The notes beneath the pieces were generated by a model that did no database searches, was not told the DNA's origin, and saw only the letters and a program-made list of their open reading frames with translations. Source: Amphibalanus amphitrite (taxonomy: Eukaryota; Arthropoda; Thecostraca; Balanomorpha; Balanidae). Taken from it: a DNA stretch of 64,000 nt. The position numbers were made by a program, and so were the translations under genes. Below are positions 33,638 to 64,000 of the stretch, piece by piece (within the stretch, counting starts at the first letter, position 1; each line of letters starts with the position of its first letter). Location: assembly GCF_019059575.1 (NCBI RefSeq), contig NW_024881620.1, positions 496,001 to 560,000 of the forward strand, given 5' to 3'.

Positions 33638-36600
33638 CTGGGACCGTTGAACTCGATCGAAGGTTCATCGCCTCGCTGGTGGCCAACTGTTTCTTCAGCA
33701 CCTTCCCGAAGCGGTCGGCCATCTCGCACCCGACACTGCTCGATGTCAACTTCTCCGCGTTCTTCTACTACTTAAACAGGTCGGTGCACTCTGGCTGCCA
33801 TGATCTCTTATAGACACCTGCTGAATGAGTTTTGACTTGATTTGGCGCGCATGTAATGCTGTTGCATATTTGTAAGTGCAATAGTTATATGTAAAAGAAA
33901 GGTATATTGGCACTGGGGTATACAAATCAAATGCCTCTCCAGATCTTAAGTTCCACTTTTTGTATCGGCTAATGCCCTTATTTTCTGTTCTATTTTCTAT
34001 TTTTCTAGTCTATTTTTTCTATTTTTCTATTTTCTATTTTCTATTTTTCTAGAGTCTATTTTTAACTCCATTGGTCCTCGGTAGCGGTCTAATTATGCAA
34101 AGTGCATCATTATGCTCCACCGAGGAAATCGCACTTCGATATGGGACCATGGTAATTGACAATTAGTCTGGGCTAGTTTGGGCCATAGCTGCCGAATAGA
34201 TTGCCAATTATTCATTGATAATGATCTGAGTCATCTCAGTAGGAGCTTATCTGCACGCATATCAGCTTCACAGGACATAATGGCTTTCGCGTGTAGGTAC
34301 AGTGGGTCTATTTAAGATCTCCAGAGCCACCACGTGGCGCTACGGTCGGGGTAGGGCGAGTCCAAATCCCGAGGGAAGTGAGGTCACCGGTCATTGTGGG
34401 GGCAGGAGGGAGGGGGAGTGACGCGGTATCACGGCGCATGGGGCGTGCGTAACTGCGTAGCGCCGGGAGTGGGCCGCCCAGGGCCGCCCGCCACTGCGCC
34501 GAGGCTGAGGGGAGGGGATGATGGCTGCGGGTGCGTTCACTCCGGTATGGTGGTATCCTGTTCATGTGGAACCGGCAAGAACGCGACTGAAGGGAATCAT
34601 TATCTCAAACAAACGGGCAAGCCAGAGGCAGCGTCAGTTCCAGCCAAAATGTTGAACAATGATAATTGAAACAATCTAGGACGTATTCATAGCATGCAAC
34701 TTTTCAGTCGATAGTTGCATGATGCTTTTCATGATGCATGCTGAGGCTTTTCTAAACTGTTATTTGAGTTAGATATTTTTCATTTGGCACGTTCAGTTTT
34801 GGTGGGTTTTATCGGGTCGAAAAGAATCAGAAAAGAAAAAAGAGTTGAAATGGCTCCAGACAAATGACCAAAAATATTTTCCTAAAAAATGAAACTTAGC
34901 TAAACGTTTATAAGCGATAATTTTGACTTTTGGGGAGGATATTGGGGAAAGATATTGGGGAAAGATGTCATCGTGCTTAGCTGAGTTGCAGTAGAAGGAA
35001 AGGTTTTGGTTGTGTCTAGATAAAACCAGACCCGGGAGTGGGGCTCGAACTCACGACATCGCGTTCAGCTCACAGGTTACTCAACCTCAACGCTACGAGC
35101 ACCTATCGCCCTGCGCAGCTTGCTCAGTGTTTCGGCTAAAGTTCGGCCAAAGTGTCTGACGTCTGTCAATGTCACGAGGCGAAACCCCAAGGTAAATGTC
35201 CGTCCCGGTAGCTCGGTCGGTAGAGCGTTGGACTCCATGTGCCATGTGGTGAAGGCGCACGTCCCGGTTGCAAAAGTCCGGGTTCGAAACACGACGTGTG
35301 CTTGACGTTTTTTAGCCTCCTGACGGGTATGGTTGTGGTTGGTGGCAGGCCGCTGCCAGGCGAAGTCAGCGAGGGGACCGGCCGTGCGCGGCTATGTGCG
35401 CACGTTAAAATTTGGACTCTAAACCACAAACCATTTTGCCATAGACTAAACCTCAAAACCATAGTCTGCAATAGACCAGTATAGCGCCTTTTGGGGCGAC
35501 TAACGGAGCGAGCGAGGGGGTGAGTCTTGCACGTGCGAAATTTCGAGGGGGTACCTCCAACTGACTTGTGCACGGCACCCTACTGACCGGTTTCTAGCGA
35601 TGTGCCAAATTTGAGCACAATCGGCCCAGCCGTTCTCGAGATCTGGGAGCGGCACCCTGCACGTGCGCGCGTGCAAAATGGGTCCCAACTGACTTGTGCA
35701 CGGCACCCTACTAACCGGTCCCTAACTGTGTACCAAATTTGAGCGCAATCGGTCGAGCCGTTCTCGAGATCTGGAAACGACCCCTGCACGTGCGCACGTG
35801 CAGCAGCACCCCAACTCTGGCTCATGGATATGCAGTGCCTAGTGGGTGCCTACCTACATGCCAACTTTCAGCGCAATCGGCCAAGTAGTTACCGAGATAT
35901 CGCAACAATTACCAAAGTGACAGCTCTTCGTTTTGCACGTGGCACGTGCATAAGGGGTCACCCACATGCATCGGGAATAGTCCAGTACTTGGTAGAAGGA
36001 ATGAAGCTACCCTACAAAATTTACCGCATGTAAATCGGTAAAGTGGTTGCTGAGATATAAGCCTCGCAAAAGCGTCCGCACGGCCGGCCGGCCGCCGGCC
36101 GGCCGGCCGGCCGCTCATACTCAGAAATTTCCGTTAATCTAAGGAAAGACTTCGCTCGCTTCGCTCGCTCCGTAACCAGGAATTGCTTGATCGGAGGGTA
36201 GATGGCAGGTTTCAACGCTTAACAAGCTCAGCTTAGCGGGGACTCTGTCCTTGTGACTCCTTCCATTCAAAAGGTTCGGGCCAAATTTATATATTAAAAA
36301 AGGGGGAGCCGAACCAGGTTGGGCCGAGTAGAACCAGGCTGGACCGGGGTCATGCATGCAATCATGGTCAGACAAAACAGAAGTTAATTTCGGGTCAAAT
36401 ATTTTTATTAACTGATCTTATTGTTTTTTAGCTTACACGTAAAATAACTTTTAGCTTTTTATAACTCGATACTTCATGCACAGAAATGTGGCGTTCGTCC
36501 ACTTTTCCTCATCGTCTCTTAGCGACTTGATTTCATGTGGTGGCGGAACGGGGGGGAGGGGGGCATCGGGTCACCGTGCCCCCGTTTGATTTTGGCATTT

Positions 36601-39600
36601 TAACATTAGCCCTATGGGCGTTGCATGGAAAGAATGGGACCAAAAGTCGGCAGTGCCCCCCCTTAATTAAAGGTGTTCCGCCGCCACTGCTTGATTTGAC
36701 CCTAAAGGCGTCTTACCAGCAAAAAAATTAAAATCACCTGCGTTATACCTAAATATTTGCCCAAGGGCGCTCTACGCAAGAAACGCCAGCCGGTCAAAAA
36801 ACTGGCGAACGAATACGATCTCTCTAGTGCTTGAATTATATTCAATGAAAATTTCAGGAGACATAAATAATCTTAATCCTTATAGCTAGGCGCTCGGAGC
36901 ATTCGCTAGCATTCCATTGCCAGCTGCATTATCAACGCCACATTTGCATTACTCTGGGTGCATCATAAGCAACAGTAGGTGAACCGGCCACAGCAAAACC
37001 ATGCCTCAATTTCCTTTCCTTCCAAGCTGCCAAGCTAACCGGCCGCCCGGCCCACCACCGCGATATGGAACAACACTGGAGTGCGCCATTTGCCTACGGC
37101 AGTGCCCCACCGCGCCGGGGCTGTTTGACAGGTCACCCGCACCGTGACCTCGCCACCCGCCCCCCCCCCCCTCCCCGCCCACCTCCCCATCGGGCCCAGC
37201 TGGGTAGTGACCTCTCCTTGAATTTGACATGGACTCGACTAAGGCTCAACGCCATCTAGTTACGTCTGGAGATCCTAATAAGATCCACTGTACATATGCT
37301 GTCATTACCTACCTCCATTTGCTTTTGAATGCACATTAGCACTTGCCTCATGTTCGTTTCGTTATGTGCTGTAAGTAATTTATTCATAGAAGCCGATGAA
37401 ACTTTTTTTTCTATTTCTTAGGTACAGCAATCAGTTCGGTCAACTAGATATAGTTACACGTTGCGATTTTTTAAAGCTCATTGGTAAAAAAGACAATACG
37501 GCTTTGGTGTGGTAGATAAAAGGTAAACGACGAACTAATAATGATATGCTGACTGTTGGGTGACCCACTGACCACGTACCCGTCACCTGATGCCGTTCTA
37601 GCGCCTCTCTCAAATCATTATTTCCTATAGCCATATTGATATCGCGGCCAGGGCTCTTTTCGCCTAGATATATACCTAATGTAGGACCATGCGCCCGGTG
37701 ACTGTTCTAAGACACCGCCGACAGGCCACTGTTGGGGTGGGGCGCCCCACGACCCACCGAATACCCGACCGACCGACGGCAGGCGCCACGTAATAAAGCA
37801 GCTCCCTGTTATTGATGACCGCTCCGAGCGCGTTATTGGTGTGTGCTCCGGCATCGGGATCACGGAGCTGGTATAGGTACGGGAGACGCCTCTATCTAAA
37901 CTCGACTGCTCTGATCCCATCACGGCGTAGGGCAGGAACGGGCGTGGTGGATTGACGACCGGGCTATCATGGTGATAGGACGACGGCCAGTCCTCTGGAA
38001 AAGTGCTCTTCTAGACGTTATCTAGCGTGATCTGTCAGGGATATGCTATCTGCTCCCGGTTGGGTGAATGTAAAATCGTCTGTGTAGTCAGCTGCGCGTA
38101 ATCTGCAGCTGATTGTGTTGTCCTAGATCGATTACACTAGCCTAGGCGATCGTTTCACGTTTGCATATCGCCCGTCTGATTATTTGAGACTCGGTCTTTG
38201 TGTATCTGGGCGGCAGTGAAACACAGCTTCAGATCCGCAGGCTCAGATGTTAGACGTGCGTTGTTACCTTTAAACAAAACCCGTTAATTTGAGTTAAAAC
38301 GCGCGTGATTACGGATTGATATGATGGCTCGTGATTACGAACTGAAAGCTTCACAAATGACGCAAAAGTTAATAACAGCTTAAATTCACTGGCTAAAGTT
38401 TCCCTCCCTCCCTCCCCCCCCCCCTCCCATTTACCTACCGAACCAACTTTCGTGACGACTATCGGGGGTGCTAATTACTTCATCGTTAAACACAATTTAC
38501 AATGCCACTCCAATTCTTTCTTTTAGCGAGATCCAGTAACCGATAAAATCAGGTGAAAACTGTCCCCGCATGGGTCCAGCGGTGTCCGCCCACATTGTAG
38601 CCCCACGGACGCCGGCTTATTTGTGGACCAAAGCTCCACATCCCCAGGGGGACCTAGTGCTAATTGGGGCTCTCACCGTGCTCTTAGGTTATTAAAGGGA
38701 AGCCGATCGACGTACTGAGAGGCTTGTCTGAGGCTTGAACCCCGAGTCCCCGGCGTAGGAAGCTGGATGGCGGGATAAAACGGTCGCGCCGGAGATTGTC
38801 TTTGGTGCGCTTCGATCGGCGCCCGTCGGCTATGGCTGCCCAAATCGATTCGCAGCAAACAGCTTGTCCCTGAGCGAGGAGACGGAACTGCATATCAATG
38901 AGCACTGGCTGAAGGGTCGGACGCGAGTTAGCTTGATGGGAAGGATCGGCCCGGAATCTGCAAGGCACGGGCGTAAAAGGGCGCACTTTTATTGCGCGCT
39001 GTTACCTCGCAGAGAAGCGCGCAGATAAACGCTGTGGTTGAGTGGATCAAATTAGCACTGAGGTACTTGAAGTACTAATTACTTCATCGTGAAACATAAG
39101 TTACAAGCTGGCGTGCCAATCCGATTAATATTGATGAATATTTATGGCTTTGCGTCAGGCGTATTTAATGTCTTGTATAAAAATGTGTTTTATCGCTGGG
39201 ATAACAACCATTCAGTTATCAACTGTGTGAATTACGAGGATCGAAATCACGCGTCAATAATATTGATATCCTAATAAGTCATGAGTTTATAGGCCTATTT
39301 TCGGTATACCTACATACTGTTTAGAAGAGGTCATTATGTCGTGAAGTTTTTTAAGTTGTAATAAGGAAATTAAAAGCATTTCTATTCAAACGGTCTTTAT
39401 TTTGCAATGAATTCCCTATATTTTTGTTGCGCAAATACCTATTGGTAGTGGGCAAATTAATTATAAGGCCTGAGCCTCTTTAGGGCCGTGCCTCAAACGA
39501 TCCATGGCTCGTATTCGTTGATGTATATGTTTAATGAAGTGTTAGCACTATGCATTAGCACATGCTTCAGCAGCCCGCTGAACGTCAACGCGAAGTGCTA

Positions 39601-42600
39601 ACAAGTGCGAAGTTTGAGTGGATGTGCAAACCTTGGCTCGACACAATAATGCCACCGCTTTAGGCCAGATGAGGTGCGAAGTTGTGCAGGAATGATTCTG
39701 CTGTCGAACGCTGCGTAAAGTGGACGTGTTTTGCTCAGTCTATAAGGAAAATCAGTTGTGATTGGAACATCACAATCTTACCAGACCCATATTTTCAATC
39801 GAATCACTTTCGCGTAGTCGTTATACCGGTTACAATGTATAAACATGGAGAAACGTAAATGGGTTACCCCTGCCCTTTTCGGTGGAACGGATCCATCTTT
39901 TCCGTCCGTCGGCGTTTCATCAATCAAACGCGATACTACGATCGGCGATACATAAGAAAGGATACTGATTCATCGGTTCGCCACGCGGATATGGTGTTCT
40001 CTCGATGTTGTTTCTTGACGGCTGTCCTGATAGCCTGACAATGTTGTGTCACACATGCTGGCGTTCTGCTGGACCTTTCAATGATCGATGGTGAACACGA
40101 AAGGCGTTCCGTTTTCAACACAGCAAAATCGGTTACATGCGACTATGGTTGGACTACAAATGCGCTGATGGAAGGACCACTCTCTACCTACAGGGCTAAC
40201 ATTCAAATCTGAGCTTTGGTGCGCTGTTCCAGCATCATGACATCTAAAGACGTTAATGCATGACTGTTGCCGACTAAAGTAGCTCCGATCATAATAGCTT
40301 ACTTTCCACGATTAACCTTCGCATTTGAAAGTAAAAGACGACGTAATCGACGCGCAATCTCGCCAGATTTCATCCAGCAATCCGATAGGGTACACAAGTA
40401 GCTTTTCTAAGTTAATCAAAAGTGAGAAGACAAATAGTTGTTAGGTAGGCATTTCAACACCTAACACTTACCTCCTTTCCTATCTGATTGCAGTCCATGG
40501 CAACGTGTCAAGTTTGAGGCGATCCTGTTGTACTTTGAAGCTCTTTCAGAAGCGGAACCTACTGGTCTTGTCACCTACACCAGAAAGGTAAGTACTCGTA
40601 TGTTTCCACCATTTCAGCCTTAGTTACCCGCTCCAGTGCCTACTCTCAGTCATAACCATGTTTTGTTTTTATCTTAATCACTTCAAAAGTTTAAACGTAA
40701 CGTTTGAGCTTTCGTAAATACGTGATCTTGATGCTAATCCTTTTCATCCTTTCATGCAGACAGCAAAATGTACGCTATGCACTATAATGTATCAGCTCAG
40801 TCAGTATCTATATTCGCTGTTGTGTTGGGCAGGTGATGAGCGGCCGCGAGTTCGCCAGTCTGGCCGACTGGCTGGGCTGCTCCAAGCCTCTCTGTCCGGT
40901 GGTGGTTCGCGACACGGGCAGGATAGAGGACGCCGAGCCGGGCCTCAGTCAGGTCTGCTTCCTCAGCCCGCAGCCGGGCGGCGACACGCTCAGAGACGGA
41001 AGGTCACAGGTCAGTATTGGGTTAGATGGGGTCAAACACAGGTTAGTTGTAAATCAGATGATGGTCAGAAAGGTCGAAGGTCAGTTGAGCTCAGCTGAGG
41101 GGTTTCCTGAATGGGGGGCATCTATGCGAAAGATTGTGTATGCTGTAATATAAGCAATGTTTGTTGTTGTTTATCTTTTACGTTCTATCCACACCAGCTA
41201 CCGTGTTTAGTAGACCGCGCCTCGCGGCTCATCTTTAGCTGCACAGACTCAGAAATTTCTATTTGCTGAAGCGATTGGTCTGCATTGCTTCTTCGCTGAC
41301 ATAACACACCGCTATCCATCCGTCTACCCATCAACCATACCGTGCTATCTTTTGACAAAGTCTGTTCGTGGAACATCACTTGTAAGACGGATTAGCCGTC
41401 GGTAATCTGGTGATTATGGGATCGGATGACCGGCCACCGCGGCATCGCTCCGGCCACCGGTGAAGAACCGATGGCTCATTCTGTCACCTAACCGTGTTAT
41501 TGTCGGAAAATGACGCGATCTGAGTGAGATGGAATAAGATTGATGACGTAGAAAGGTCGGAAGAGGTGAAGATATCCGGCAGGAGGGGCGGGTGGCTTGA
41601 GTGAGTGCTGGCTTCGTTGGAGATCTTCGTTGACAACTGAATAGTGCTGGCGGGCAACCATCAAACTTGATGATCGGGTGCTTGGTAGGGTTATATCTTC
41701 GACACGGTCGAAATACTCTGAACTTCTATTCCGCCTGTTTTCCCCGTTCTCAGGAGTCTCTGAGCCACGCCAGTCACCCGGAGCTGCTGGCGTCGGCCAT
41801 CTTCCAGGAGAGACTCGAGGATAACGAGTCGCTGGCGGTGTCGGGCTGTGTCCGGTCCTGTCAGATGGCGGTGAATTCCTCCGGGGCGCCGCATCTCACC
41901 CGACTGACGGTAGGTGGCAGCAGCTGTCACACCGGGACTCGTACACTAAAAATTACGAGCATTGTAAGGGTAAATGTTCCATGAAAAACAAATGCTTTGA
42001 TTTAAGTTGAAAAAAAATACTTAACCCTTGTGTGTAACCCTTGTGTCTCTTACTATACCAGCAGCTTATAATTTGCCGACGGTGTTTCTCCTTGCTCAAG
42101 TATGTAACTAGCTCCCGTTTCTGTCACCAGGCGTCAGCACGGAGCGCCTCAGCCAACGGCCAAATCTGCTGTGTTGACGCCGAGAGTTACACCACTCTGC
42201 CCGCCGCTCAGTACGACGAGGACGCCATCCTGCGGGAGCTCAACAAGGCCTACCTGGGCTTCCAGCAGCCGAAGGTGACCAAGAGGCTGAGCCCGATCGG
42301 AGAGTCGAACGGCCCCAGCCGGCATGTGTCGGTTTCTCCCGCCCTCAGTGAGGTCGGAGAGTCCCCGGAGCTGGTCAACGGCGGTGCGAGGGGCCTCCAC
42401 AACAGTCGGACGTCTCACGGAGTACCCATGTCCCCGCTGGCCGCCCCGCCACCGGAGGTACAGCCCTCGTCACAGCCGCAGTGTGAGGAGCCGGGGAGCT
42501 GCGGCGTCCCGCTCCGCCGACCGGCGACCATCGGAGGGCCGACCACAGAGCCCCCTGCTGAGGGGTCACCGGGCGGATCAGGAGGCGCCACCAGACAGAG

Positions 42601-44045
42601 CGTGCTCCGACTCATCGGACAGATGCAGCGCTCCATTGAGCGTGAGCTGGGTCAGCTGGGACAGCAGGCCAACTCACAGATCGTGTCACAAATCATGTCC
42701 CGGATTCGGACGATAGAACGCAGTCAGTTGGTGAGACTTCTGAGTGCAGATACACCCGCCCAGCCTGCTGCAGCAGTGGGTGAACTCCCGAACTGCGATG
42801 AGGACGCTCTGTTGACTGTCTGCGAGGCGCTGATGGCCGATCAGGTACCGCTAGAGCCTCTGGACGGCGACTACTTCGAGTGGAAGCTGGAGGAGCTAGC
42901 ACAGGAGCGGTGCGCGGAGCTGCCTGGGCCCGGAGCCGGGAGCCGAGCGGAGCAGGGAGGGGAGCCGGAGCAGACGGAGCCGGGAGCGGACGTTCGGGGG
43001 GCCCGCGGCAGGACGGCCTCGGTTGATACGGATGCGTTCTTCAGTGCCTGCAGCAGTGTGGATGACAGCTGTTCACAAGGTGAGACTGAGAGCGGCTTGG
43101 CTTTGAATACAGACGGCTTAGGCTGCCGAAGCACCATAAGCAATATTATTCGGTTCGGTCTCAATCGGTTAGTTGTTTTGTGTTCAGTTTCAGTAACATA
43201 CCTAACTAACAGTAATGCAATATTGCATGCACATTTTATGTGTGCTTAGTTCTGACCACACATAATCAGTCAATTGAAGATTTGATGGATATTGGTTAGA
43301 GAGCCGAGTTGTGATTCGTAGCCGTAGGTAGGTGTGAGCCGTAGGTGTGATCCTTCCATGAGATATGCGATGCTGAGCTACAAATGAGTCTAAGCCTCCG
43401 TATTATTCACCTCCACACTCCCCCTCTGACAGACGGCCGGAGCGCGGACAGCGGCTGGAGCGGCTCGCCGCCGCGGTACCGACGCTCCGTGTCGCCCGGC
43501 CGACCTCATCCAGGCCCCCCACGGCGCCGCAGCACCTTCCGGGACCGGCTCGAGGAGGCCAACCGGCGCGCCGAGCGGGAGGAGCTGGCCGACAGCCGCG
43601 ACTCCACAGAGGACGAGCACACGGTGGCCACCGCCGTCCGGCCCGCAGCGGCCGCCGTCAGCGTCATCCGAGCCAACCCGGCCGTCACCGCGGCGGCGGC
43701 CGCCGCCGGCCGCGCCGCCACCGCCGCCGATGACGGCGATGACGGAAAGATGAGGTGAGGACGGACGATGGGAGTGCGGGGATGGGATTGGAAGAGGGAC
43801 TGGTTTATTAGGGTGTGTCTGGTATGTGTTGGAGTGGATTGTTTACGCGTGGTGATGGGTTAGGCAATTTATGGGCGCGTTAAGCATTCTTAATAAAAGT
43901 TACGAATTAACCGTGTTCAAATCATTCCGGAGACCTGTAAGCTGCTATTCTGAGCTCTGATGATCAGCGTTGATGAACGTTCAGATCCGGCATACAAACC
44001 GTCACCGATTTCATTTACGTTATCTGCCGTCGCCTGACACCCTCC

Positions 44046-44117
<72 letters not shown>

Positions 44118-47100
44118 CCCAGCCGCGCTGGTTCGTCGGTCGGTGAGGACCTGGACGAGGTCGCCGATCAGCTCACCAACGGCCGGCGCTGGGCCAGCCG
44201 ACTCCGCGGCAAGAGCCGCAGCCTCACCGGCAACAGCTCCCGACTGAGCTTCAGCTCAGACTTCAGCTCCGGTGCGTAACACTTTACCGAGAATTCAAAA
44301 GTAATCAAGCTATTGTCATGATTCTACCAAATATTTCACGTATTGTATGCCCTAACCTTGATCACTGCTCAAGTCATCTGGGTCGCAGGAGAGTGGAGAA
44401 CCCGATGGTTCATGAAAAGTAATAGCATGACCGACAACAGTGCTCTAACCGTGTCCCCGTGTCCCTGCGCCTCTCGTCAGACGTGGAGGAGCTGTGTGAC
44501 AAATTTGGCCACTGGCTGGAGGAGCCCGGGGCCGAGCTGGGACCACGAGACTTGGCCGTCATGCGGGTCACCCAGCGCATGCTCAAGAGGACGCTGTCGG
44601 ACACATTTGCCGGCAGCGTGATGGACATGGAGCAACTGGATACGGCGTGTCACATCCCCAGCGCCAGCGGACTCAGTCACAGTCAGTACCTGAGTCAGTC
44701 ACAGTCAGTACCTGAGTCAGTCACAGTCAGTACCTGAGTCAGTCACAAGTAGTACCGGACTCAGTCACATCCCCAGTGCCAGTGGACTCAGTCACAGTCA
44801 GTGCTCACAGTCACAGTCAGTATCGGACTCAGTCATATCCCCAGCGCCAGCGGACTCAGTCACAGTCAGTATCGGACCCAGTAACTGTCATTGGGTACCT
44901 GAGTAGTAGGTGCCTGCGTCAGTCATGATTCACTAATTGCAGTCAGTCACTATCTCAGTGATAAATGGCATCAGTCACATTCGTTACGTGGATCAGCCAC
45001 AAGTCACTAGTCAATCACAGTCAGTACCATAACGATAAGTGGGATTATGTGCTCAGTCCCCATGTCCTCGATATGTCCTGGGCTTGGTCTGTTCGTGTTG
45101 GGACTATCATGGTACCCGAAGTCGATATCGTGCCCATGAGTGAGCATTGAGTGCTTACTACTATATTTCCTCCCATAGGATTGGAGTCTGACGCCCGACA
45201 GCGGAAGCGCGCCTGTGCCCGATCTCTGAGCCTCTCCGATCAGTGGGCGAGGGAGAGGCTCGCCCTGGAGGTGGCCAGGAAACTGGTAGAGCCCTCGCCT
45301 GACCAGGTACGCTGAGGACCGATCTGCCAGGGGTAGGAGTGCCACTAACCCGACCGATCGCCGGACGAGCGGCCGAGTGGTGTGCCGTGTGCGTGGAACT
45401 AATGAGTTATTACACTGCATACGATACCATCTTGTTATAGGCATTTATTTAAATGTCAACGCAACAATCACGCTGTTGGACGGTTACTTATTACACGCAT
45501 CGTTCACCCTAGCTATTCAGAGTGATTAAACGCTGTCCAGTGATGGCAATGCCATTTGTTGAGCCTCGTTTGTGACCCCTGCATTATTGTTTGACCTAGC
45601 TGAACTAGCGTTTGCTGTGTGCTCGGTGCAACGTGTGTGGCTGTACGTACCTCTCCCGTGTCTCGTCACTAACCGACCCCCGGGCACGGCCGACCCGTGC
45701 CCCAGCCCTCTGCTCCCGTCTGCGCCAAGCCCAGCTCCAGCTCCGTGGTGGAACTCCTCGAGGCCGCACACGCCGCCACCCTGCGCCAGGAGCGGCTCTG
45801 CCCTGCCATCTACCGGTACTCGGAGGAATTAGCCAGCCGCCTGGTTCCCGAATGTGTCCACGAGAGCGCCTTGCTGCTGCGATTTCACCTTGCCAAACAC
45901 CGGCGCGCCTATCGCAAGATATCAGCTCGACCGGAGCGGAAGCTGACCGAGTTTCCGCGGCGGCCGGCGGCGGCGCCACCGTCGCCGCCTCCCGCTCCGC
46001 CGCCCACCGGGCCTCTCCCGCTGGACGAGGCCACTGTGGAGGGATTCAGCTGGACCCTGGTAGAGCGGCTGCTGGAGGAGACGATCCGCCAGCTGCCCAG
46101 CCCCCGCCGGCAGCTGCTGAAGCGGCTCATCAGCGGCAGAGCCGTCTCTCTCGACCGTAAGAAGGGCATTCTGAAGAAGCCGCGCTCGGCGGTGCCGCGG
46201 AGTCGGAGCAGCACCTCCGATCGGCCGCCGCCGCTTCAGGGGAGTCCCGAGGGTGTCCCCAGCAGCGGGCTGCCTAGCCAGACGGGCCGGCCGGAGGCGC
46301 AGCGCCGCAAGAGCCGGCGGGAGAGCTTTCTGGAGGTGGGTGGGCGATTCAGTCCTGCACCGGTCAGTGAACGGTCGACCGTTAGCCCGCGGTTGAAAGG
46401 GGCGTATTGGTGAGGCTGTGTGGTCTAATAGAGCATCTAACAAACTAATGTGTAGAACTTTCTAACTAACGATTTACCGATGTTGTATTGCATCATGTAA
46501 AGCATGCTTGCGATTCGTGTCCCACATGTTCTATGTTGTATCGTAATTCGTAATGGAATTCACAAATTAGTGTTTTCTCTGCTAATGACGTGTCAAAGAA
46601 GGTCATGTCACTGAATGCCATTGTCGTTATTGATAAAACAGATTTGATGTGCATTATACACCCAATTTACATCACAAACCCTCGTGATCTCCCCCTGACC
46701 GGCCCTCCTCTGGCCCGCTCAGTCTCGGGCCGCCGCCGCGGCCGCCGCCGCCTCCGCCGGCGGTGCCGCCGCGGAGGACACCGTCGAGCCGCCCGACTCC
46801 GGCCGGCCGGCGGTCACGGGCAACTGGGGCTGCGGCCGGCGCCACGGCGGCGACCCCCAGCTGAAGGCGGCGCTCCAGTGGCTGGGAGCCAGCCGCGCCG
46901 AGCTGCCCTGTCTCATCTACTACACCTGCGGCAACGCGGCCGTGCAGACGGTACGGACTCGTATGGATAGAGGAAAGGGGAGAGAATCTGTGTCTGAGGT
47001 CCGGAGGGCAAAATATGGTGGGCCGAGAATCGCCAATGCAATGGGTCGAAACTTACTTGGGGTTGCCTGAGTACACACTGATTGTTGCTGACCACTGGCC

Positions 47101-47725
47101 AGTCACTGCTCGCTTTGACTGACTAAATCGGTCATCTCCCCCGCCCCCACCCCCTCAGTTCCTATGGGTGTGCACTGTGCAGTACCGGTCACCGACCGAC
47201 ACTGGACGGTCGCGGAGCTGTCTGTCTCCCTCCTGTGTGTGCACTGTACGCTGGGGATCTAACTGTACCCTCCGCCCCTCCCCACAGCTCCAGTGGGTGT
47301 GCAGTACGGTCACCGACCGACACTGGACGGTCGGGGAGCTGGCCGCAGCCGTCCTGTCCCACTGCCACCGCAGACTGGAGGCGGCCAAACGCAGCGCCAG
47401 CAGGCAAAGAACAGGTGAGCATTCAACTACTGGCGGTCGCTCAGACCGGTCAATAATGGTAATGACTAAAAGATGTCGTGTACTGCAATGATAGTCCTTT
47501 GACCTAGGATTCTTAAGTTTCTTCAGACTGACACAGTTACGCCTACGCTATGCACCGCGAGAACACTGTAAGCGCCGTTTCATGTTGTTTCATGGGCGAT
47601 ACATAAGTGTTTTTGCTCTTCTTTCAGTGGCCACTCCTGGGGACCTGTTTGAGGACCTGCTGCGCTCGGAAGTGCCGCCAACAGCGGAGGCCACCTTCAA
47701 AACCCGCATACCTTCCCTCGACTGA
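33638..47725 (+). CDS. PARG-family macrodomain protein, catalytically degenerate, with a ~778-residue insertion (5' end not found)
   Basis: Thirteen exons join with consistent phases: 33638-33779, 40494-40587, 40833-41009, 41754-41909, 42131-43079, 43433-43754, 44123-44271, 44481-44681, 45179-45306, 45706-46335, 46723-46950, 47288-47414, 47628-47725 (stop TGA 47723-47725). The visible product has 1132 residues. PARG cleaves ADP-ribose polymers, and the fold is seen here in order: FIASLVANCFFSTFPKR, the PTGLVTYTRK segment, GRIEDAEPGLSQV, HPELLASAIFQERLEDNESL, QYDEDAILRELNKAYLGF (near residue 225) and VTGNWGCG (1013). The catalytic QEE is QES (137-139) and GGG is GGD (127-129), so I infer no hydrolase activity. 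Residues 235-1012 are an insertion with no match I recognise. A possible poly(A) signal AATAAA is at 48493. Catalytic loss could be lineage-specific; the 5' exons are missing from this model. Confidence 0.85.
35025..35115 (-). mobile_element. tRNA-like SINE fragment
   Basis: On the minus strand a B-box-like GAGTTCGAGCC sits about 45 bases downstream of an A-box-like TAGCGTTGAGG, followed by CCACTCCCGGG. The arms do not fold as a proper tRNA. This layout is typical of tRNA-derived SINE heads. Confidence 0.5.
35202..35305 (+). mobile_element. tRNA-derived SINE head
   Basis: An intact A box (TAGCTCGGTCGG) and D-arm (AGCTCGGTCGGTAGAGC) are followed about 65 bases later by a B box (GGGTTCGAAAC). 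The region between is too long and the T stem does not pair, so it is not a functional tRNA gene. It lies about 90 bases from the opposite-strand tRNA-like fragment. Confidence 0.6.
35480..36175. mobile_element. ~670-bp interspersed repeat, copy 1
   Basis: This is a near-identical relative of 51891-52575. After a shared short lead (CGCCTTTTGGGGCGA) it has TAACGGAGCGAGCGAG at 35501 and ends TCGCTCGCTCCGTAA at 36175, so TTACGGAGCGAGCGA-type ends are inverted. Inside, a module with TGACTTGTGCACGGCACCCT and TCTCGAGATCTGG occurs twice, with CACGTG palindromes. A CCGGCC tract at about 36081-36113 is longer than in copy 2. Short open frames in it are not maintained between modules, so it is non-coding. 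Confidence 0.85.
36526..36697. mobile_element. 156-bp hAT-type MITE with 8-bp duplication
   Basis: The element 36534-36689 is flanked by CTTGATTT on both sides (36526-36533 and 36690-36697). Its ends are inverted: CATGTGGTGGCGGAAC on the left, and CAGTGGCGGCGGAAC read from the right. An 8-bp target duplication and CAGTGG-type ends are typical of the hAT superfamily. It has no coding capacity. Confidence 0.85.
40833..41909 (+). other. PARG signature-loop exons with altered catalytic residues
   Basis: Exon 40833-41009 ends GGDTLRDGRSQ and exon 41754-41909 opens ESLSHASHPELL. In active PARG this region reads GGG, seven residues, then QEE; the human catalytic glutamate is E756. The seven-residue spacing is kept here, but the third Gly is Asp and the second Glu is Ser. 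The preceding FAN motif is FLS. The donor CAG|gtcagt and acceptor ttctcag are both good, and the phase-0 junction falls between Q and E, so the change is not caused by a misplaced splice site. The intron (41010-41753) shows no other feature. Confidence 0.8.
44054..44114. repeat. (CT)n microsatellite at a 3' splice site
   Basis: About 30 CT dinucleotides end less than 10 bases from the acceptor cgtccccag at 44122, so they form the polypyrimidine tract of the PARG-like exon 44123-44271. Confidence 0.95.
44641..44960 (+). repeat. Degenerate tandem repeat copying an exon end and its splice donor
   Basis: The 3' end of PARG-like exon 44481-44681 (CCCCAGCGCCAGCGGACTCA, then GTCACA|GTCAGT) recurs in the following intron at 44766-44801 and 44835-44870. 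The copies are embedded in short repeats of GTCAGTACCTGAGTCA and CAGTCA. Each copy keeps the GTCAGT donor. Confidence 0.85.
47151..47235 (+). pseudogene. Frameshifted duplicate of PARG-like exon 47288-47414
   Basis: An acceptor-like pyrimidine tract ending ctcag (47158) leads into sequence nearly identical to the start of the next exon, sharing GGTCACCGACCGACACTGGA and CGGTC-GGAGCTG. Compared with that exon it has about eight extra bases (CACTGTG-type and one C), which break the frame. No donor matches the real exon's end. I read it as a decayed tandem exon copy; a rare alternative exon is possible. Confidence 0.7.
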
Positions 47726-49633: not shown

Positions 49634-52600
49634 CTATAACGCCGGCGCCTGACGCAGCAGCGGAATACAGGCCACCTTGTGGAACACTTGGTGCGAGTAC
49701 TTGGCGCGGATCGTCTTCAGGTGGGGGTTGGGCTCGCGGCCCAGCATGTTGTGCAGCTTCTCCGTCAGGTCCTGGAACTCGGAGACCGAGTAGCCTGCGA
49801 AGGAGCGGGGCGGATAAGTCAGCCTAGATCAAACTACTAAAGTAGATAATGTAAAATGAATTAACGGTATGCTGGGAAAAGGAAAACACCAGTGGGACGA
49901 GGAAAACCATAGGGTAGTAGTTCTATTCTAGAGCAATAAGATGCCACCCCATACCGTCTCTTCCGCCAACCCCGTCTCACCGGAGAAGTATTCCACGGTG
50001 GCCTTGATCTGCTCAAAGTGACCAGGCATCCTCATGTGGACGGCAAGCGCCAGGGCGGCGGCCGCCAGTCGGGAGCCGGCCACCGACACGAACTGGTACT
50101 CCATCAGCGACAACTCCAGGACGTAGCGCGCCAACGTCAGCACCTCCACGGGCAGCTTACAGCACTGCGGGGAGCGGGGGAGGGGAGTTAGCACCTCTAC
50201 TGAGAGGGATAACACAGGGGAGTTAGCACCTCTACTGAGCGGTATAACACAGGCCGGGAGACAACATCCCCACAGGGAGCCATAGGGGAGGGGGAGTTAG
50301 CACCTCCACTGAGCAGGATAACACAGGAAAGACAGCACCTCGACAGAGAACTTACAGCACTGCGGGGAACGGGAGAGGAGAGTTAGCACCTCTTATAATG
50401 ATGTACGGCATTGTGCGGAATCGGTTTTCTGGGTGGAGGGATAAAAAAGTCTGCTTTAGCGTTGTATAAGATCTATGGGGCGAGACGGACCCGGGACCGG
50501 GAGGCTGATTTCCTTACCAGTGTACCTGTCTTCATTCTGTGATGTGTTTAGAAACGCGGAAACAAGCAAGAAAGCCATATAGAGAGGCTATCACAGTGGG
50601 AAAGTTTTACTGACATGGAGAAAAGTCAGTCGAGCGATAAGAGACCGCAAACACCAGCTGCAGATGGCTGGCTTGGACGGATCGGGGAGACATTCGAGAT
50701 GGGATTTACAAAACAACGCTGAGTGTCCCCGGGTAAGGCCTTGAGGTAGGATTTTGGCAAGGCCTTAGGCCAGTAGGATGTTTGAACGAAATTAATGCAA
50801 TCCGGTACTGCTAATGAAAAATGGGCGACAACTATCATGGCCTATGAGAGCTGTAGAAGCCGCTCCCTATTTTTCATAACCACCTACATCCCACCAGCTG
50901 CAATCAAACTAATTATGGACACATTAGCAGACGTTCGCAGTCGCACAGATACCAAGCACCTCATAGGCCGTGCAAACCACAATAGCCGCTGATCATTAGT
51001 CCGCCTGCGAACGTCACATCGATGTGGGACCCTCCCGTCATATGATCCCAATCACAGGCAGCCCATTAAACGGAGCGGGGCTCGGGTTACCGGCGGGAGT
51101 CTGGCCGACAGACCGACCGGCAGCCTCGGCGGCGGGGCACAGATTCACAGCCGCCCGCCGTGACCCGCACTCACGATCCTACCCTATCCGCCGCCGTTCG
51201 GCACTCCCAGCCGCCGCTCCCCACAATAGGCCCCGTTCCCAGGTCGGGTGATGAGAACCAACCGCAGAATATCAATCAACGGTCCAGGGCAGACGCTAGC
51301 TTCACTCTCAGACCAGCACGTACTCTAATACGTTGCCGTTGTAAGACAACAGTCACCGCGGGGTATTACAATATAATACGTCTTGGGACGCCCACACCGG
51401 GACCTGGCGCTTATCCCCGGATCCCCAGCTTTCAACTAACCCGTGCGTATCGGCGCAGGAACCGGTAGGAGACCGGCAGGCCGACGTCAAAGTTGACGGT
51501 GCGCAGGATTTTCATTTCCGTGGCTATGATCTCGCGCCTGGCGTAGGCGTCCTCGCAGATGTAGAGAAAGTCGTCCAGCGGCGGCGGCAGCCGCTCCTGA
51601 AATAAGATAGCTCACGGTCAGTGACTGCTCAGTGCTCACGCTTACAGAAGGACAGAACAGGACGAGAGTAGAAGTATAGGTATTGCAGAAAGCAAGACAG
51701 ATTGAAATAGGACACAAGCGGGCGAGTTTCGATTAAAATTTCAACGCATCTAACCACGCATATTCTGAAAACCATTAGAGTAAAAACGTGCCCGCTATTA
51801 ACGCTTTCACACAACGAACCTTAATTTGATGCGAATGAAACGCAATCGGCAATACACATGTCAATACCCAATCACTAAAAAACCAGTACCTATAACGCCT
51901 TTTGGGGCGAGTAACGGAGCGAGCGAGAGGGTGAGCCTTGCACGTGCGAAATTTCGAGGGGGTACCTCCAACTGACTTGTGCACGGCACCCTACTAACCG
52001 GTCTCTAGCGATGTGCCAAATTTGAGCACAATCGGCCCAGCCGTTCTCGCGATCTGGAAGCGGCACCCTGCACGTGCGCACGTGCAAAATGGGCCCCAAC
52101 TGACTTGTGCACGGCACCCTAATAACTGGTCCCTAACCGTGTACCAAATTTGAGCGCCATCGGTCGAGCCGTTCTCGAGATCTGGAAACGACCCCTGCAC
52201 GTGCGCACGTGCAGCAGCACCCCAACTCTGGCACATGGATATGTAGTGCCTAGTGGGTGCCTACTTACATGCCAACTTTCAGCGCAATCGGCCAAGTAGT
52301 TTCCGAGATATTGCAACAATTACAAAACTGACACCTCTTCGCTTTGCACGTGGCACGTGCATAAGGGGTCACCCACATGCATTGGGAATAGTCGAATACT
52401 TGGTAGAAGGAATGAAGCTACCCTACAAAAATTACCGCATGTAAATCGGTCAAGTGGTTGCTGAGATATAAGCCTCGCAAAAGCGTCCGCACGGCCGGCC
52501 GGCCGGCCGGCCGCTCATACTCAGAAATTTCCGTTAATCTAAGGAAAGACTCCGCTCGCTTCGCTCGCTCCGTAATAAAAAATAGTCGACCACTCACGTC

Positions 52601-59259: not shown

Positions 59260-61623
59260 TCATTCGGCGATGGCGTCCGTCTCCTCCTCCTGTTCCTCTC
59301 GCAGCGTGCTGAGCACCCTGAACAGCTGCGTCTGTACCACCTCCTCCAGCTTCTCGACGTGGTCGGGCTCGGCGGCCGGCAGGTTCTCCAGCTGGTAGAC
59401 GGCCACACTGCCGGCCGAGTCTCCGATCATCAGACACTCGCCGTCGGGGCCGAACGTCAGCGTCGTGTTGGTGGCGCCGCGGGTGACGTTCGGGTGGACG
59501 ATAAGCGGGTCCAGGGTGCTGACGGCTAGGTCCCACACCTCCACCTCGTGGTCGGTGCAGAGCGCCAGCTGGGTGGCGCACAGTGGGCTCCACTGGATGT
59601 CGTTGATGGCCGAGCGACTGGCACTCTGCACCACGATCACGGCCACCTTCTGGTCGGCGTGCCAGACGCGGAAGCTCCAGTCGGCCGAGCAGGTGACGAG
59701 TACGTCGGCGCTGAACGGCGACCAGTGAGCGCGGTACACAGCCGCCAGGTGGCCGCTGTACGTGAACAGGTACTGGTCCGAGTGAGACGTGCTGCACAGG
59801 TGCGCCGTGCCCGACTCCGTGGCCACCAGGTACTGAGCCGTGTTGCCCGGACGGAAGCTGAAGTGGAGGCCTACTGCCGAGCGCGAGATGAACGCATCGG
59901 ACTTGCGCGAGCGGTTCTCCTTTTTGGTGCTGAAGCTGGGGTCGCGGCGCATGGACATGACGGGTACCGTCTGAAGGCCCTGGCGGGTGTTCCACTGCAG
60001 AACGCGCCCGTCCTCCGAAATGGACATCAGCACCTCCCGCTTCGCCTCACCTACCCCTTGATCCTTCAGCACGAACTGCACGTCCCAGATGACACCCATA
60101 GGCTTGTCGACTCCCCGGAAGCAGTCGTTCACAGGACGGTCCGACTTCTGACTGGTGCTGTACAGCGCCAGCGATCCGTCGTAGCAGCCCACAGCGAGCA
60201 TGGCAGCGTTCTGCGTGGCGAAGTCGCAGCAGGTGGCGCCGCTGGGCGTGCGGTAGATCAGCGCCGGGTGATCGGGGTTCTTTGGCGACCAGCAGCAGAC
60301 CAGGCCTGGGTGCGCGCCGAACTGGAGCGTGCCGTAGGTGACTGCCAGCAGGTCGGGGTTGGCCGGGTTCCAGCGGACGCAGGTGACGCGCTGGCCGCTC
60401 GTCTCCGGACAGCGGTAGTTCCAGAGGTGTAACATGTGCGGCGCCACCATCACCACCGACTGCGAGTGCTCGGCGACCGGCTCGTCGGGCTCGGTCCGGC
60501 CCGGCAGCATGCGGCGGAACTGCGCCAGCCGCTGCTGGTACGTGTTCATGCACAGCGCCTTCTCCATGATGAACGTCTTCTCCTGGATGTCCGACAGCGT
60601 GTCCAGCGGCACCTGCTGGGACGAGTCTTCCTCGTCATCGCCTGCCGCCTCGCCCTGTTTTGGAGACTGAACAGCTGGACCGGCGAAGGCGCTTCCTCCC
60701 GGCCGCAGCAGCGCGCCGCCGACATCCTCTCCGAGGGGATCGTCTTCCTCTTCGTCCTCTTCTTTAGGCTCCAGCTTCTTGTACTCGTCGAACATGTCCC
60801 ATACGGCTGCAAAGTCGCACTCATCCGCCTTGTTAGCTTGCGATGCTTGAGTGCCCTTTATCTTCAGAGGCTCGTTGATTGTTTGCATTGCACGTTCGGT
60901 GTAACGGCTGTTACCAGCTCGAGACTTGCATAGCTTTTCATAGGCGGCATTCTTGGCCTCGATCTCTGGAACTTGCTGGTCATCTTCTGGTACACAGGTA
61001 CTTGGAAGCTCAAACAAGTTGATGGTGTCCGTTTCGGTGCAATGACAGATGACGGGTCTCTCCAAATCATAGCCGATTTCATCTTCTAAGTTATCAAAAA
61101 TTGAGTGATAAGCACTGTGCGTTGGTGCTACGCCACTCGCTAACTCCGACTCCTTTTCTTCCACGATGTAAGTTTGAGAGAACCCCGATAGCATCGTCGA
61201 GCGTTTCAAGCCCGTGCCAAGTGTCCCTCCGCGTTTGTCGGTGACAGTGCGGGTGTACGTGGAGTTCATCGGACTCCATTCTGACGCCCCGTCCTCACTG
61301 CCTTCACCAAAGCCAAACAAGACACTGTGAGTCAGCTTCGGACCACTGTCTTGGTCTTGGAGTGACAGAGGAGTGACATCTTCTCCGAGTTCACTTATGA
61401 TTCGTAAACCTCGAGTGGTCGGTCCTGGCTGTGTTGTGGTCAGGACGCTTCTGGCCACCCTACCAGATGATTTGGCAAATTTCGACGATCGATGACTAGC
61501 CACGGAGTAGTTGCTCCGAGCGAATATGCTTCGAGCACTAGGTATCGCTTTCTTATGCTGCTTCGAACTTGCCTGTGAGCCTCCATGCTTCGATGCAGCA
61601 ACGGATGATCTTGGAGTAGACAT
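59260..61623 (-). CDS. DNAI4: Dynein axonemal intermediate chain 4 (WDR78), single exon
   Basis: One uninterrupted frame of 787 residues encodes the protein from the first in-frame ATG (61623-61621) to TGA (59262-59260). An in-frame TGA lies just upstream of that ATG, fixing the start. DNAI4 is an intermediate chain tied to axonemal inner-arm dynein assembly in cilia and flagella. The N-terminal third is Ser/Arg-rich. A conserved block follows, with CHCTETDTINLFELPS, KNAAYEKLCKSRAGN, RYTERAMQTINEP and AVWDMFDEYKKLE, then an acidic stretch (KEEDEEEDDPLGED). The C-terminal half has about six WD units, for example VTCVRWNPANPDLLAVTYG, VLVTCSADWSFRVWHA, INDIQWSP and EVEVWDLAVS. Length is close to the human protein (about 850). 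The lack of introns is unusual beside the multi-exon neighbours. Confidence 0.93.
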   Translation of the reverse strand: MSTPRSSVAASKHGGSQASSKQHKKAIPSARSIFARSNYSVASHRSSKFAKSSGRVARSVLTTTQPGPTTRGLRIISELGEDVTPLSLQDQDSGPKLTHSVLFGFGEGSEDGASEWSPMNSTYTRTVTDKRGGTLGTGLKRSTMLSGFSQTYIVEEKESELASGVAPTHSAYHSIFDNLEDEIGYDLERPVICHCTETDTINLFELPSTCVPEDDQQVPEIEAKNAAYEKLCKSRAGNSRYTERAMQTINEPLKIKGTQASQANKADECDFAAVWDMFDEYKKLEPKEEDEEEDDPLGEDVGGALLRPGGSAFAGPAVQSPKQGEAAGDDEEDSSQQVPLDTLSDIQEKTFIMEKALCMNTYQQRLAQFRRMLPGRTEPDEPVAEHSQSVVMVAPHMLHLWNYRCPETSGQRVTCVRWNPANPDLLAVTYGTLQFGAHPGLVCCWSPKNPDHPALIYRTPSGATCCDFATQNAAMLAVGCYDGSLALYSTSQKSDRPVNDCFRGVDKPMGVIWDVQFVLKDQGVGEAKREVLMSISEDGRVLQWNTRQGLQTVPVMSMRRDPSFSTKKENRSRKSDAFISRSAVGLHFSFRPGNTAQYLVATESGTAHLCSTSHSDQYLFTYSGHLAAVYRAHWSPFSADVLVTCSADWSFRVWHADQKVAVIVVQSASRSAINDIQWSPLCATQLALCTDHEVEVWDLAVSTLDPLIVHPNVTRGATNTTLTFGPDGECLMIGDSAGSVAVYQLENLPAAEPDHVEKLEEVVQTQLFRVLSTLREEQEEETDAIAE

Positions 61624-64000
61624 TGCCTCGGGGAAAAGGTTAAAATTGCTGTTCAATTTAAATCATAAGCAAACAATGCTGGTAGTGATACGAACAGCTG
61701 AATAAAAGTCACATTTTATTAGCTCCACTTGATGAAGAAGTAATGCCACTGCACACGGTTCTTCATTTCACGTGCTTCCTATCCGTCCTATAGGTAAGAA
61801 CGGATTGATGGAGAATGGTCCATCCAGGGCACTAAAGAGTCCATCCTAACTCTTGATCATGCGATCCAAAGTGTCTTGCATGACGCAACAAATAGGTAAG
61901 TACTTTATATGGTAGATCTTACGTCTGATGGCCTCGATCACTCCGATATCAACGCACTAGACACAAAATATCACAAAATATTGGTCACAATTCTAGCGCA
62001 CACAGGCATTTGCTACACTACCTAGAATGCAGCCGTATCACTGGCGAACAGCCCAACGTTGCTATGGCAACCCGACTGGCAAATCAATGGCACTTCCCCA
62101 GTATGTGTCTTTTACATCAAAACTGAGCAATCCGGATCTATTGATTAAACGGACGGCTGTCGGCAAGTAGAATGAAGCGGACAATTTGGCAATGCTACTC
62201 GAAGTGGAGATATGTAAGCCTTTACTTATATATTAGTACGGCTTTTATCGTAGGGACACTATGCGTCATACTTGCTATGTTGAATAGGCTGGTCCAAGGT
62301 ACATGCATAAAACTACTGGCTGGTCGGTAGGTTTGTTTTTTAGGACTGTATTTACTGTATTTGTACTGTATTACTGTATTTTAACTGTATTTGTTTAACT
62401 TAAATTTTTTCATCGTCTGCAATGAATCATCGTCTATTTGCAGGTACATTACATACATGTAACGGAGCTAGGTTATAGGTAGACGCATGCGTATGCAATG
62501 CATATTAAATGCGCGCATAAAGTCATGCATCTCCTGCTCCAACGGTTAAAACACAGCTCCTCTGTCAATCGTTTTACCAATGAGCCTTCGAACAATGGTA
62601 GGTATACATAGGCGGAACGGTTATCAATATATTCGAACGTTTTAATCATTCGACGAAATATCTATGTACCTATAATAGCGTTTAAACGTCTTTGAGCCTG
62701 TACTTAAAAAATGTTCTTCGTTATTTTTTGTAATTATGACAACGTATATACCTATTACCTACTATACAGGTGATATACCCCATGAATGAACTCTGTGAAC
62801 CACCGGGTATTTTGCGAGCGGCACCGTGACAGGAAGCGATTCCGCGACGCTTACGTCACGGGAAGAGGCCTACCACGTCACTGGGAACAGCTGGCTACCT
62901 ATCAGCGGTGTCGTAACATCACAGTTGCGCAGCCTGCAAGTTAACGTCAGCAAGTTTTTGTTCACTTTTATACGGCTATTCGATCTATACTGTATCGATT
63001 TCTTAGCTTTCGGTGGACTTATCTCAACCGATGTCACAACAACTTTATTGACGTGTTTTCCTCACCTTTAAGCACAACCAGTTTCTTTGGAAACTGGCAG
63101 GCCGAGTCAAATTCATAACCGTCAGCAGGGTTATGCTGAACACGCCTGTGAGGACCCTGACGAGTTGTGAAGACGGCGAATTGTGACGTTAGCTCGACTG
63201 ACCCACCTGCGCTCGCACAGTAGGTACTGAATAATATACACTGGGGAGTTGTGATAGACAGGATCGCGCTATGCGGCCTCGAGCAAAAACTGGTCTTCCA
63301 GGTTGACGTCTCCGCTGGCGGGTATGTAGTGTAGGTAGTCGATTTGTATGTTCTTTTCTTATAGGTGCTGTTGCACTTACGTTTTATCCGTTTTAACAGA
63401 ACGTCTCGTGGATCTGAGAGCTCTGCGTTATGCGTAGGCACGTCTGGGCTACGTGTATGCACACAGCACATATAAAAGAGCATTTAAATTTGACTTAACA
63501 CATTTTGCTCATTTTTATCAGCATCGACCTTCAAACGATAAGTGAAGGAACGTAGTTGATTCTGTAAATTCCGCGTTACTTTATAAGTGAACCGTCTTCA
63601 AACGAGGTTGAGGTCGATTGATTGTGGAAAAATAATATTTCAAAATGACTGAGAATTCGCAACAATTAACGTCACTATGATGACCCAATGTGCATGCTGA
63701 GTTATGACGATACCGCGCCCTCAGCACTGTCCTCCCAACAGTCACATTTTGCACTTGTTGCGGCAAACTCTGTGCATAAAGTTTACCAGAGATCACGACG
63801 CAGCCGGTTGAATAACGGTTCGATAACTCAGGAAACGTGACACCATATCGTGCCATCTTCGTGGCTCGTTCAGTGAGGCACCTGTGCCCCGGGGTCGGCG
63901 TGTGGCGCTGCCCTTCCTAGCGCCGAGTGACCCTGACCCAGTCGCCTTACAATGGATCCCGGGCGTCTGCGCAGCTCGCCGCTCGCGTGGGTGGGCGCTT
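61624..64000. other. Upstream of DNAI4, no gene seen
   Basis: AT-rich DNA with a short repeat of TACTGTATTT around 62344-62390. It presumably holds the DNAI4 promoter, but no core element is distinct. Open frames at 62826-63071 (plus) and 63034-63483 (minus) have no recognisable domain. The last ~150 bases become GC-rich and may begin another gene beyond the window. Confidence 0.4.

Follow-up and report, generated by a model that had tools for sequence, protein, structure and literature searches.

A PARG-like gene with a split macrodomain in Amphibalanus amphitrite, a probable relative of the AKAP3, AKAP4, AKAP11 and SPHKAP family

The window, a 64,000-nucleotide stretch of Amphibalanus amphitrite DNA that was analysed as a whole (C123:496001-560000, in a genome of 807.55 Mb and 2644 contigs), carries a gene related to poly(ADP-ribose) glycohydrolase (PARG). 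Two macrodomain motifs that are close neighbours in the ordinary PARG of the same genome are here several hundred residues apart. This raises the question of whether one protein can house so large a region within a globular enzyme fold and, if so, whether it is still an enzyme and what the region might do. The answer preferred here, with a probability of roughly 0.6, is that the gene encodes an inactive PARG paralogue in which about 770 inserted residues divide the macrodomain, and that it shares a PARG-derived lineage with the A-kinase anchoring proteins AKAP3, AKAP4, AKAP11 and SPHKAP. It is best read as related to the AKAP11/SPHKAP family and as retaining, in a pancrustacean, an ancestral split-PARG architecture. 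On contig C2644 of the genome, tRNA-Leu(UAA) is flanked by COX1 and by a frame that by eye looks like COX2, a gene order typical of insects and crustaceans.

Thirteen exons on the + strand (33638-47725) can be spliced into a single frame that encodes 1132 residues of an incomplete protein and closes with a stop codon. Residue numbers below are those of this protein, whose 5′ end is incomplete. All 12 introns have GT..AG ends, and their phases are compatible, as had been claimed for the phases in a sequence-only reading of the locus. The motifs ELNKAYLGF (residue 225, 42236-42262) and GNWGCG (residue 1015, 46819-46836) are separated by 781 residues, compared with 13 residues in a single open frame for the same interval of the ordinary PARG. 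The insert consists of residues 234-1014 (42263-46818 with introns); it begins within exon 5, covers exons 6-10 and ends within exon 11. The earlier estimate of a ~778-residue insertion spread over seven exons thus stands, with the parts of exons 5 and 11 included in the count.

The two halves on either side of the insert are recognisably PARG. Exon 1 (33638-33779) encodes the PARG_cat_N core with LVANCFFSTFP, exon 2 (40494-40587) the end of the PARG helical domain (TGLVTYTRK), and exon 3 (40833-41009) the start of the macrodomain. The Pfam profile PARG_cat_C matches the whole protein at 2e-36 in two stretches, the best being residues 90-241, and the C half alone at 2.1e-11. PARG_cat_N matches at 1.4e-11, beginning only at profile position 42 of 118. 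Both exceed the Pfam cut-off, and a PARG fold can be assigned; the best solved PARG structure aligns with residues 3-239 and 1005-1083. Exon 1 opens with 2 bases of a split codon, and therefore at least one upstream coding exon is still missing. The open frame 5′ of exon 1 has no ATG, and an upstream search for the N-terminal PARG helix by tblastn and a BLOSUM62 scan returned exon 1 itself (1.6e-5) and otherwise matches at chance level (best 0.39).

A second copy of the gene on contig C126, probably the other haplotype, bears on whether this is one protein. It keeps 13 of 13 exons (exon 1 at C126:524564-524705), GT..AG ends at 12 of 12 introns, and the reading frame. Exon lengths differ between the copies by whole codons only, three exons differing by 3 bases, and blastn of exon 5 displays two small balanced gaps per side. 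The ratio of nonsynonymous to synonymous change (dN/dS, Nei-Gojobori, C123 copy against C126 copy) is 0.053 for the whole protein and 0.013 for the N half, and the C half is without any nonsynonymous change. For the insert it is 0.066 (24 nonsynonymous and 113 synonymous differences), which indicates purifying selection. Constraint varies along the insert: residues 613-770 have a dN/dS of 0.010, with 1 nonsynonymous difference in 359 sites; residues 341-395 are at 0.016; and residues 481-515, which hold a motif resembling FFAT (two phenylalanines in an acidic tract), are identical in both copies. Looser stretches (234-340, 396-480, 516-612, 851-880 and 933-1013) range from 0.09 to 0.45. The copies differ by a dS of 0.19 in coding sequence and by about 5-15% in long flanking alignments, which is very high should the two be haplotypes of a single individual.

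Aligned parts of 20-48 kb were also scanned, free of any gene model, for segments in which synonymous differences between the copies dominate (stricter limits gave none, and looser ones were used). The nine top segments are all exons of this gene, namely exons 4-8 and 10-12, exon 5 being found twice. Exons 1 and 2 rank lower amid non-exon segments, and exons 3, 9 and 13 are off the list. A tenth segment (21227-21349), of 41 codons with 5 synonymous and 0 nonsynonymous differences, is either a candidate upstream exon or a chance occurrence.

The sequence-only reading had named a direct join of exon 5 to exon 11 as a point on which the model could fail, and the sequence answers this in part. Exons 6-10 total 1430 nt, which is not a multiple of 3, so the join would shift the frame. 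As the insert begins within exon 5 and ends within exon 11, it would also leave insert residues in place. Skipping of exons 6-7, 6-8, 8 or 10 would keep the frame. The kept frame, the purifying selection and the frame break on skipping exons 6-10 together argue that the protein maintains its insert. An artefact might be invoked, in which a pair of genes, an assembly error or a pseudogene in decay has been mistaken for a single gene, as the model is drawn from genomic DNA and its 5′ end was not found. That 12 of 12 phase-compatible introns recur in the second copy with the frame kept, and that the overall dN/dS is 0.053, leave such an artefact barely credible. Accordingly, this is almost certainly one maintained protein. 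The earlier proposals of one protein and not two genes, and of a PARG derivative with a large embedded region, are both upheld by the phases and joined frame, the second copy and dN/dS.

Is the protein still an enzyme? Exon 3 carries a degenerate signature, GGDTLRDGRSQ, which continues in exon 4 (41754-41909) as ES, ahead of HPELL. Thus the window gene has GGD...QES where ordinary PARG has GGG...QEE, and the pattern GGG-X6-8-QEE with both glutamates is not found. The window gene strings are GGDTLRDGRSQES and GNWGCGRRHGGD. In addition, human GAFGGD has become GRRHGGD, with loss of the Phe of the diphosphate loop, which by our own mapping is human Phe875. Both PARG glutamates are described as critical; Glu756 protonates the leaving group and Phe875 restrains the diphosphate (PMC4030884). 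The residue aligned with Glu756 is Ser in the window protein. An ordinary PARG is present elsewhere in the genome, on contig C52 with a near copy on C354. The C52 copy, which was the one read, has GGGVLGDGCVQEE and GAFNGD but no insert, and its exons joined by eye give 264.9 bits to PARG_cat_C.

From these signature residues we infer that the window protein has, with near certainty, lost catalysis. It could be proposed that it is an active PARG, or another ADP-ribosyl hydrolase that tolerates the insert, given that the two-domain PARG architecture is recognised and one signature glutamate is retained in QES. This is very improbable: Ser has taken the place of the second glutamate and Asp that of the third Gly in GGG, GAFGGD has lost its Phe, and an intact PARG exists in the genome. 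Of the earlier view that both halves of the fold are well preserved, the part concerning the fold is sound according to Pfam and the solved PARG, but the active site within those halves has not been kept.

The C half points towards a particular family. In exon 11 (46723-46950) the insert ends and is followed by GNWGCGRRHGGD and the beginning of the C half; exon 12 (47288-47414) encodes the AKAP_110-like DRHWTVGELAAAVL, and exon 13 (47628-47725) the C-terminal tail LFEDLL and the stop codon. The C-terminal part of a PARG domain is reported to form the end of AKAP3, AKAP4, AKAP11 and SPHKAP, the N-terminal part having apparently been lost (PMC11377751). Against Pfam AKAP_110 (PF05716, curated cut-off 25 bits), the 83-residue C half scores 17.4 bits (E=0.0014, profile 609-669 of 690), which is below the cut-off; the score is 15.9 bits for a cut of 150 residues and falls to 11.5 (E=0.087) when the whole protein is used. 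The same region of PARGs gives 9.7 bits for human (E=0.31) and 11.4 for the genome's own PARG (E=0.094), and that of mouse is unlisted. The window C half is therefore closer to AKAP_110 than are the human, mouse and own PARGs.

Comparison with AKAP4 leads in the same direction. The human AKAP4 C-terminus used as query, to which Pfam assigns 120.6 bits for AKAP_110, also matches PARG_cat_C at 17.1 bits (E=0.0044). With this query phmmer gives 20.5 bits for the window, 8.1 for the own PARG, 6.2 for mouse and 5.7 for human PARG, and pairwise scores with AKAP4 are 20-22 bits for the window C half against 6-9 for PARGs. The best of 500 shuffles each was 5.7 for AKAP4 against the shuffled window C half, 7.9 for the window against shuffled AKAP4 and 5.0 for AKAP4 against shuffled human PARG. 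With scores of 33-39 bits with PARGs and 20-22 with AKAP4, the window C half is intermediate. An LG+G tree of five sequences places the three PARGs apart from the window and AKAP4 with an ultrafast bootstrap of 97. Over its 76 ungapped columns, 7 are common to the window and AKAP4 only, W, S and P among them, compared with 3 for the window and own PARG only and 4 for the window and human PARG only; in 9 the window agrees with both PARGs against AKAP4. The AKAP_110 profile found no match at E<=10 in the own genome, nor any in control genomes, so the search is uninformative. The window C half itself gave 9 matches in the own genome, 7 on the two gene copies and two weak (E 0.15 and 0.59). Judged from sequence, the window gene probably belongs to the AKAP_110 lineage.

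No Pfam family lies above cut-off in the insert, in keeping with the initial description of it as of no known family, and NCBIfam gave no match to three pieces of the protein. Candidates that were set aside are PDB matches inside the insert (E 4.2 to 6.2), dismissed as chance, and three Pfam hits below cut-off that appear composition-driven: CDC73_N (0.0039 in one piece, 17 of 27 bits), and CLIP1_ZNF and K_channel_TID in the window protein. The test for AKAP helices, the FFAT pattern and the counts of protein kinase A (PKA) sites were chosen after the sequence had been viewed.

The helix profile has 17 columns and is built from ten AKAP helices, of which the AKAP-IS and RIAD strings were found in print. 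It scores the two AKAP-helix-like segments of the insert, YSEELASRLVPECVHES and LGQQANSQIVSQIMSRI, at 15.6 (18.7 in the C126 copy) and 12.3, and FSWTLVERLLEETIRQL at 3.6. The mean best score in shuffles is 2.8 (global) and 3.6 (local), with 95% points of 8.4 and 8.9, and 0 of 500 of either kind reach 15.6. Known helices left out in turn score from -1.8 to 27.9. In an E. coli control the best score is 8.0; the control comprised 14,790 residues in 42 proteins, taken from a stretch with 45 coding sequences after removal of yacM, which is tiny, and of two that were truncated. Two of the three scored segments are in exon 10 (45706-46335), YSEELASRLVPECVHES at 45817-45867 and FSWTLVERLLEETIRQL at 46045-46095. 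The third, LGQQANSQIVSQIMSRI (42656-42706), is in exon 5 (42131-43079), which after ELNKAYLGF encodes the first 273 residues of the insert. AlphaFold, given exon 5 as a single sequence, predicts a 51-residue helix around it (residues 344-394, 42593-42745), with block means of 72, 87, 81, 64 and 50 for the predicted local distance difference test (pLDDT) and a whole-model mean of 49.8, so that the model is of use for this helix alone. Exon 10 as a single sequence is predicted with low confidence (mean pLDDT 45.5), too low for use.

Near the end of exon 5 is the phospho-FFAT-like AFFSACS (43034-43054), in the acidic stretch SVDTD-AFFSACS-SVDD. It is the one match in the protein, against a mean of 0.03 in insert shuffles, for a pattern chosen post hoc, and its positions 1 and 4 are suboptimal. 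Basic sites of the PKA type are abundant. R-x-x-S/T occurs 26 times in the insert against a shuffle mean of 13.4 (0 of 2000 reach 26), [RK][RK]xS/T 7 times against 2.2 (2000 shuffles; 0.006), and RRxS/T 4 times against 1.5 (2000 shuffles; 0.06, not significant). Exon 10 has such Ser sites in RRKSRRES (46303-46326). The own genome has 12 matches to RIIa, the dimerisation/docking (D/D) domain; these may comprise PKA subunits as well as other D/D proteins. Between the two helix-bearing exons, exon 6 (43433-43754) encodes a basic linker rich in Ser/Pro and Ala, and exon 7 (44123-44271) opens the block in which the insert is best conserved (residues 613-770). Exon 8 (44481-44681) includes VEELCDKFGHWLEE and RVTQRMLKRTLSD, and exon 9 (45179-45306) includes RLALEVARKLVEP.

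These features suggest a mechanism. The two PARG halves would co-fold into a pseudo-macrodomain that does not hydrolyse, but binds a protein or perhaps ADP-ribose, and the insert would loop out of it as a scaffold. Through its amphipathic helices the insert may engage PKA regulatory subunits at their dimerisation domain, the phospho-FFAT-like motif could bind VAP, which is resident in the endoplasmic reticulum (ER), and the many basic Ser/Thr sites may be local PKA substrates. That the window protein anchors PKA, perhaps at the ER, is about as likely as not. The pseudo-macrodomain might instead serve as a reader of poly(ADP-ribose) (PAR), with the insert a disordered linker without any PKA role. 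GNWGCG is kept, PAR binding has been proposed for the AKAP macrodomains (PMC11377751), and the looser insert stretches noted above would suit a linker. But residues 613-770 are as constrained as the N half, beyond what a linker needs, and a pure PAR reader is improbable.

Several observations weigh against kinship with AKAPs and a role in anchoring. The helix profile, of whose ten helices AKAP-IS and RIAD were confirmed in print, gives low scores of 3.9 and -1.8 to two of the ten when these are left out. If the model is restricted to AKAP-IS and RIAD, YSEELASRLVPECVHES scores 13.0 and one E. coli segment 13.2, and YSEELASRLVPECVHES, the best helix, holds a mid-helix proline. Pfam RII_binding_1 is silent on the window protein, and a strict RII pattern finds only a poly-alanine run. 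The FFAT-like motif is suboptimal. The AKAP_110 match is subthreshold and varies with how the protein is cut, and the Pfam scan gave no AKAP_110 match outside the C half. AKAP4 and human PARG score 5.7, hardly above shuffles (5.0), and the window C half still resembles PARGs more than AKAP4. The short alignment and the long AKAP4 branch make long-branch attraction possible. The insert scores -4.2 bits against the AKAP4 body (shuffles up to 3.7), that is, without detectable homology, AKAP4 alone having been compared.

The lack of likeness between the insert and the AKAP4 body, the subthreshold AKAP_110 match, the short alignment with its long branches and the nearness of the C half to PARGs would be accommodated if the gene were a lineage-specific dead PARG paralogue that acquired its own insert and is unrelated to AKAPs, its likeness to AKAP4 reflecting shared PARG ancestry and fast evolution. 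Such an origin is unlikely, although it is the most serious competitor. It does not readily explain why AKAP4 prefers the window over the own, mouse and human PARGs (20.5 against 8.1, 6.2 and 5.7), why 7 columns are found in the window and AKAP4 only, or why AKAP-like helices and an FFAT-like motif are present. Furthermore, AKAP_110 proteins were independently reported to be PARG-derived (PMC11377751).

With common descent from a split PARG as the preferred reading, an evolutionary sequence can be suggested. AKAP220/AKAP11 is placed among the anchors that arose in vertebrates in a 2025 perspective (PMC12203939), and a cyclostome gene, CGG08 (PARG_homolog g7740), with PARG_cat and AKAP_110 is filed as cyclostome-specific domain shuffling (PMC11788884, Table 3). 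Taken with these reports and PMC11377751, the window gene allows a simpler account. A duplicate of PARG would have lost catalysis and taken up a kinase-anchoring region in mid-macrodomain before the arthropod and vertebrate lineages parted; jawed vertebrates would later have dropped the N half, and cyclostomes may keep it, their gene being a retained ancestor-like form. The cyclostome gene fits this account, towards which we lean slightly; the family would then have arisen neither in vertebrates nor through domain shuffling in cyclostomes. Among the matches listed in searches of one literature library, a link between PARG and these AKAPs was found in PMC11377751 and PMC11788884 only, and a single paper names PARG_cat and AKAP_110 together.

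AKAP11 has been reported to confer risk of bipolar disorder and schizophrenia, and SPHKAP is an organiser of PKA where the ER forms junctions (PMC11952666, PMC10460453). If the reading is correct, the AKAP family gains a pre-vertebrate origin, and it would be explained why these AKAPs end in half a macrodomain. An intact pseudo-PARG would also be at hand for testing what the AKAP half-macrodomain binds. The gene also illustrates how an enzyme fold of the globular kind can house a very large region. A seemingly dead PARG copy may show how the AKAP3/AKAP4/AKAP11/SPHKAP family arose from an enzyme.

The locus has other features. A perfect (CT)30 run (44054-44114) is found just 5′ of the exon 7 acceptor. 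A tandem repeat (44670-44871; periods 12, 22 and 68) overlaps the 3′ end of exon 8 and contains further GTCAGT donor-like sites, so that this exon may have alternative 3′ ends. At its start, exon 11 consists of a GCC repeat that encodes poly-alanine (46729-46772). Intron 11 has partial copies of exon 12, one in the window (about 47158-47230, by eye) and three in the second gene copy (C126:537130-537429), which look like exon-duplication debris. The next gene downstream is on the opposite strand (49634-50296, -); two pieces of it match Cyclin_C, and it presumably resembles cyclin B3. Further on, an 800-residue open frame with WD40 repeats (59263-61662, -) could, at a guess made by eye, encode an axonemal dynein intermediate chain.

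How does the window gene compare with known systems? With canonical PARG (solved chains 4a0d and 3uek, and the genome's C52 and C354 genes) it has in common the helical domain, the macrodomain, ELNKAY and GNWGCG; it differs in its broken catalytic signature and its insert of about 770 residues. Cyclostome CGG08, known from a table row, likewise has both domains in one gene (PMC11788884). AKAP11 and SPHKAP carry FFAT or phospho-FFAT motifs, DFLTASE in SPHKAP and EFFDS-D and DFVTA-E in AKAP11 (PMC12696101, PMC3261905), to which the phospho-FFAT-like AFFSACS of the insert may be compared. The window insert cannot be aligned to the AKAP4 body. The AKAP_110 family, that is AKAP3, AKAP4, AKAP11 (AKAP220) and SPHKAP, shares with the window gene a C-terminal half-macrodomain of the PARG type (PMC11377751) and probably AKAP-type helices, which are candidates in the window gene, in the long region that precedes it. 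These AKAPs have apparently lost the N half of PARG (PMC11377751), whereas the window gene keeps a recognisable N half together with GNWGCG.

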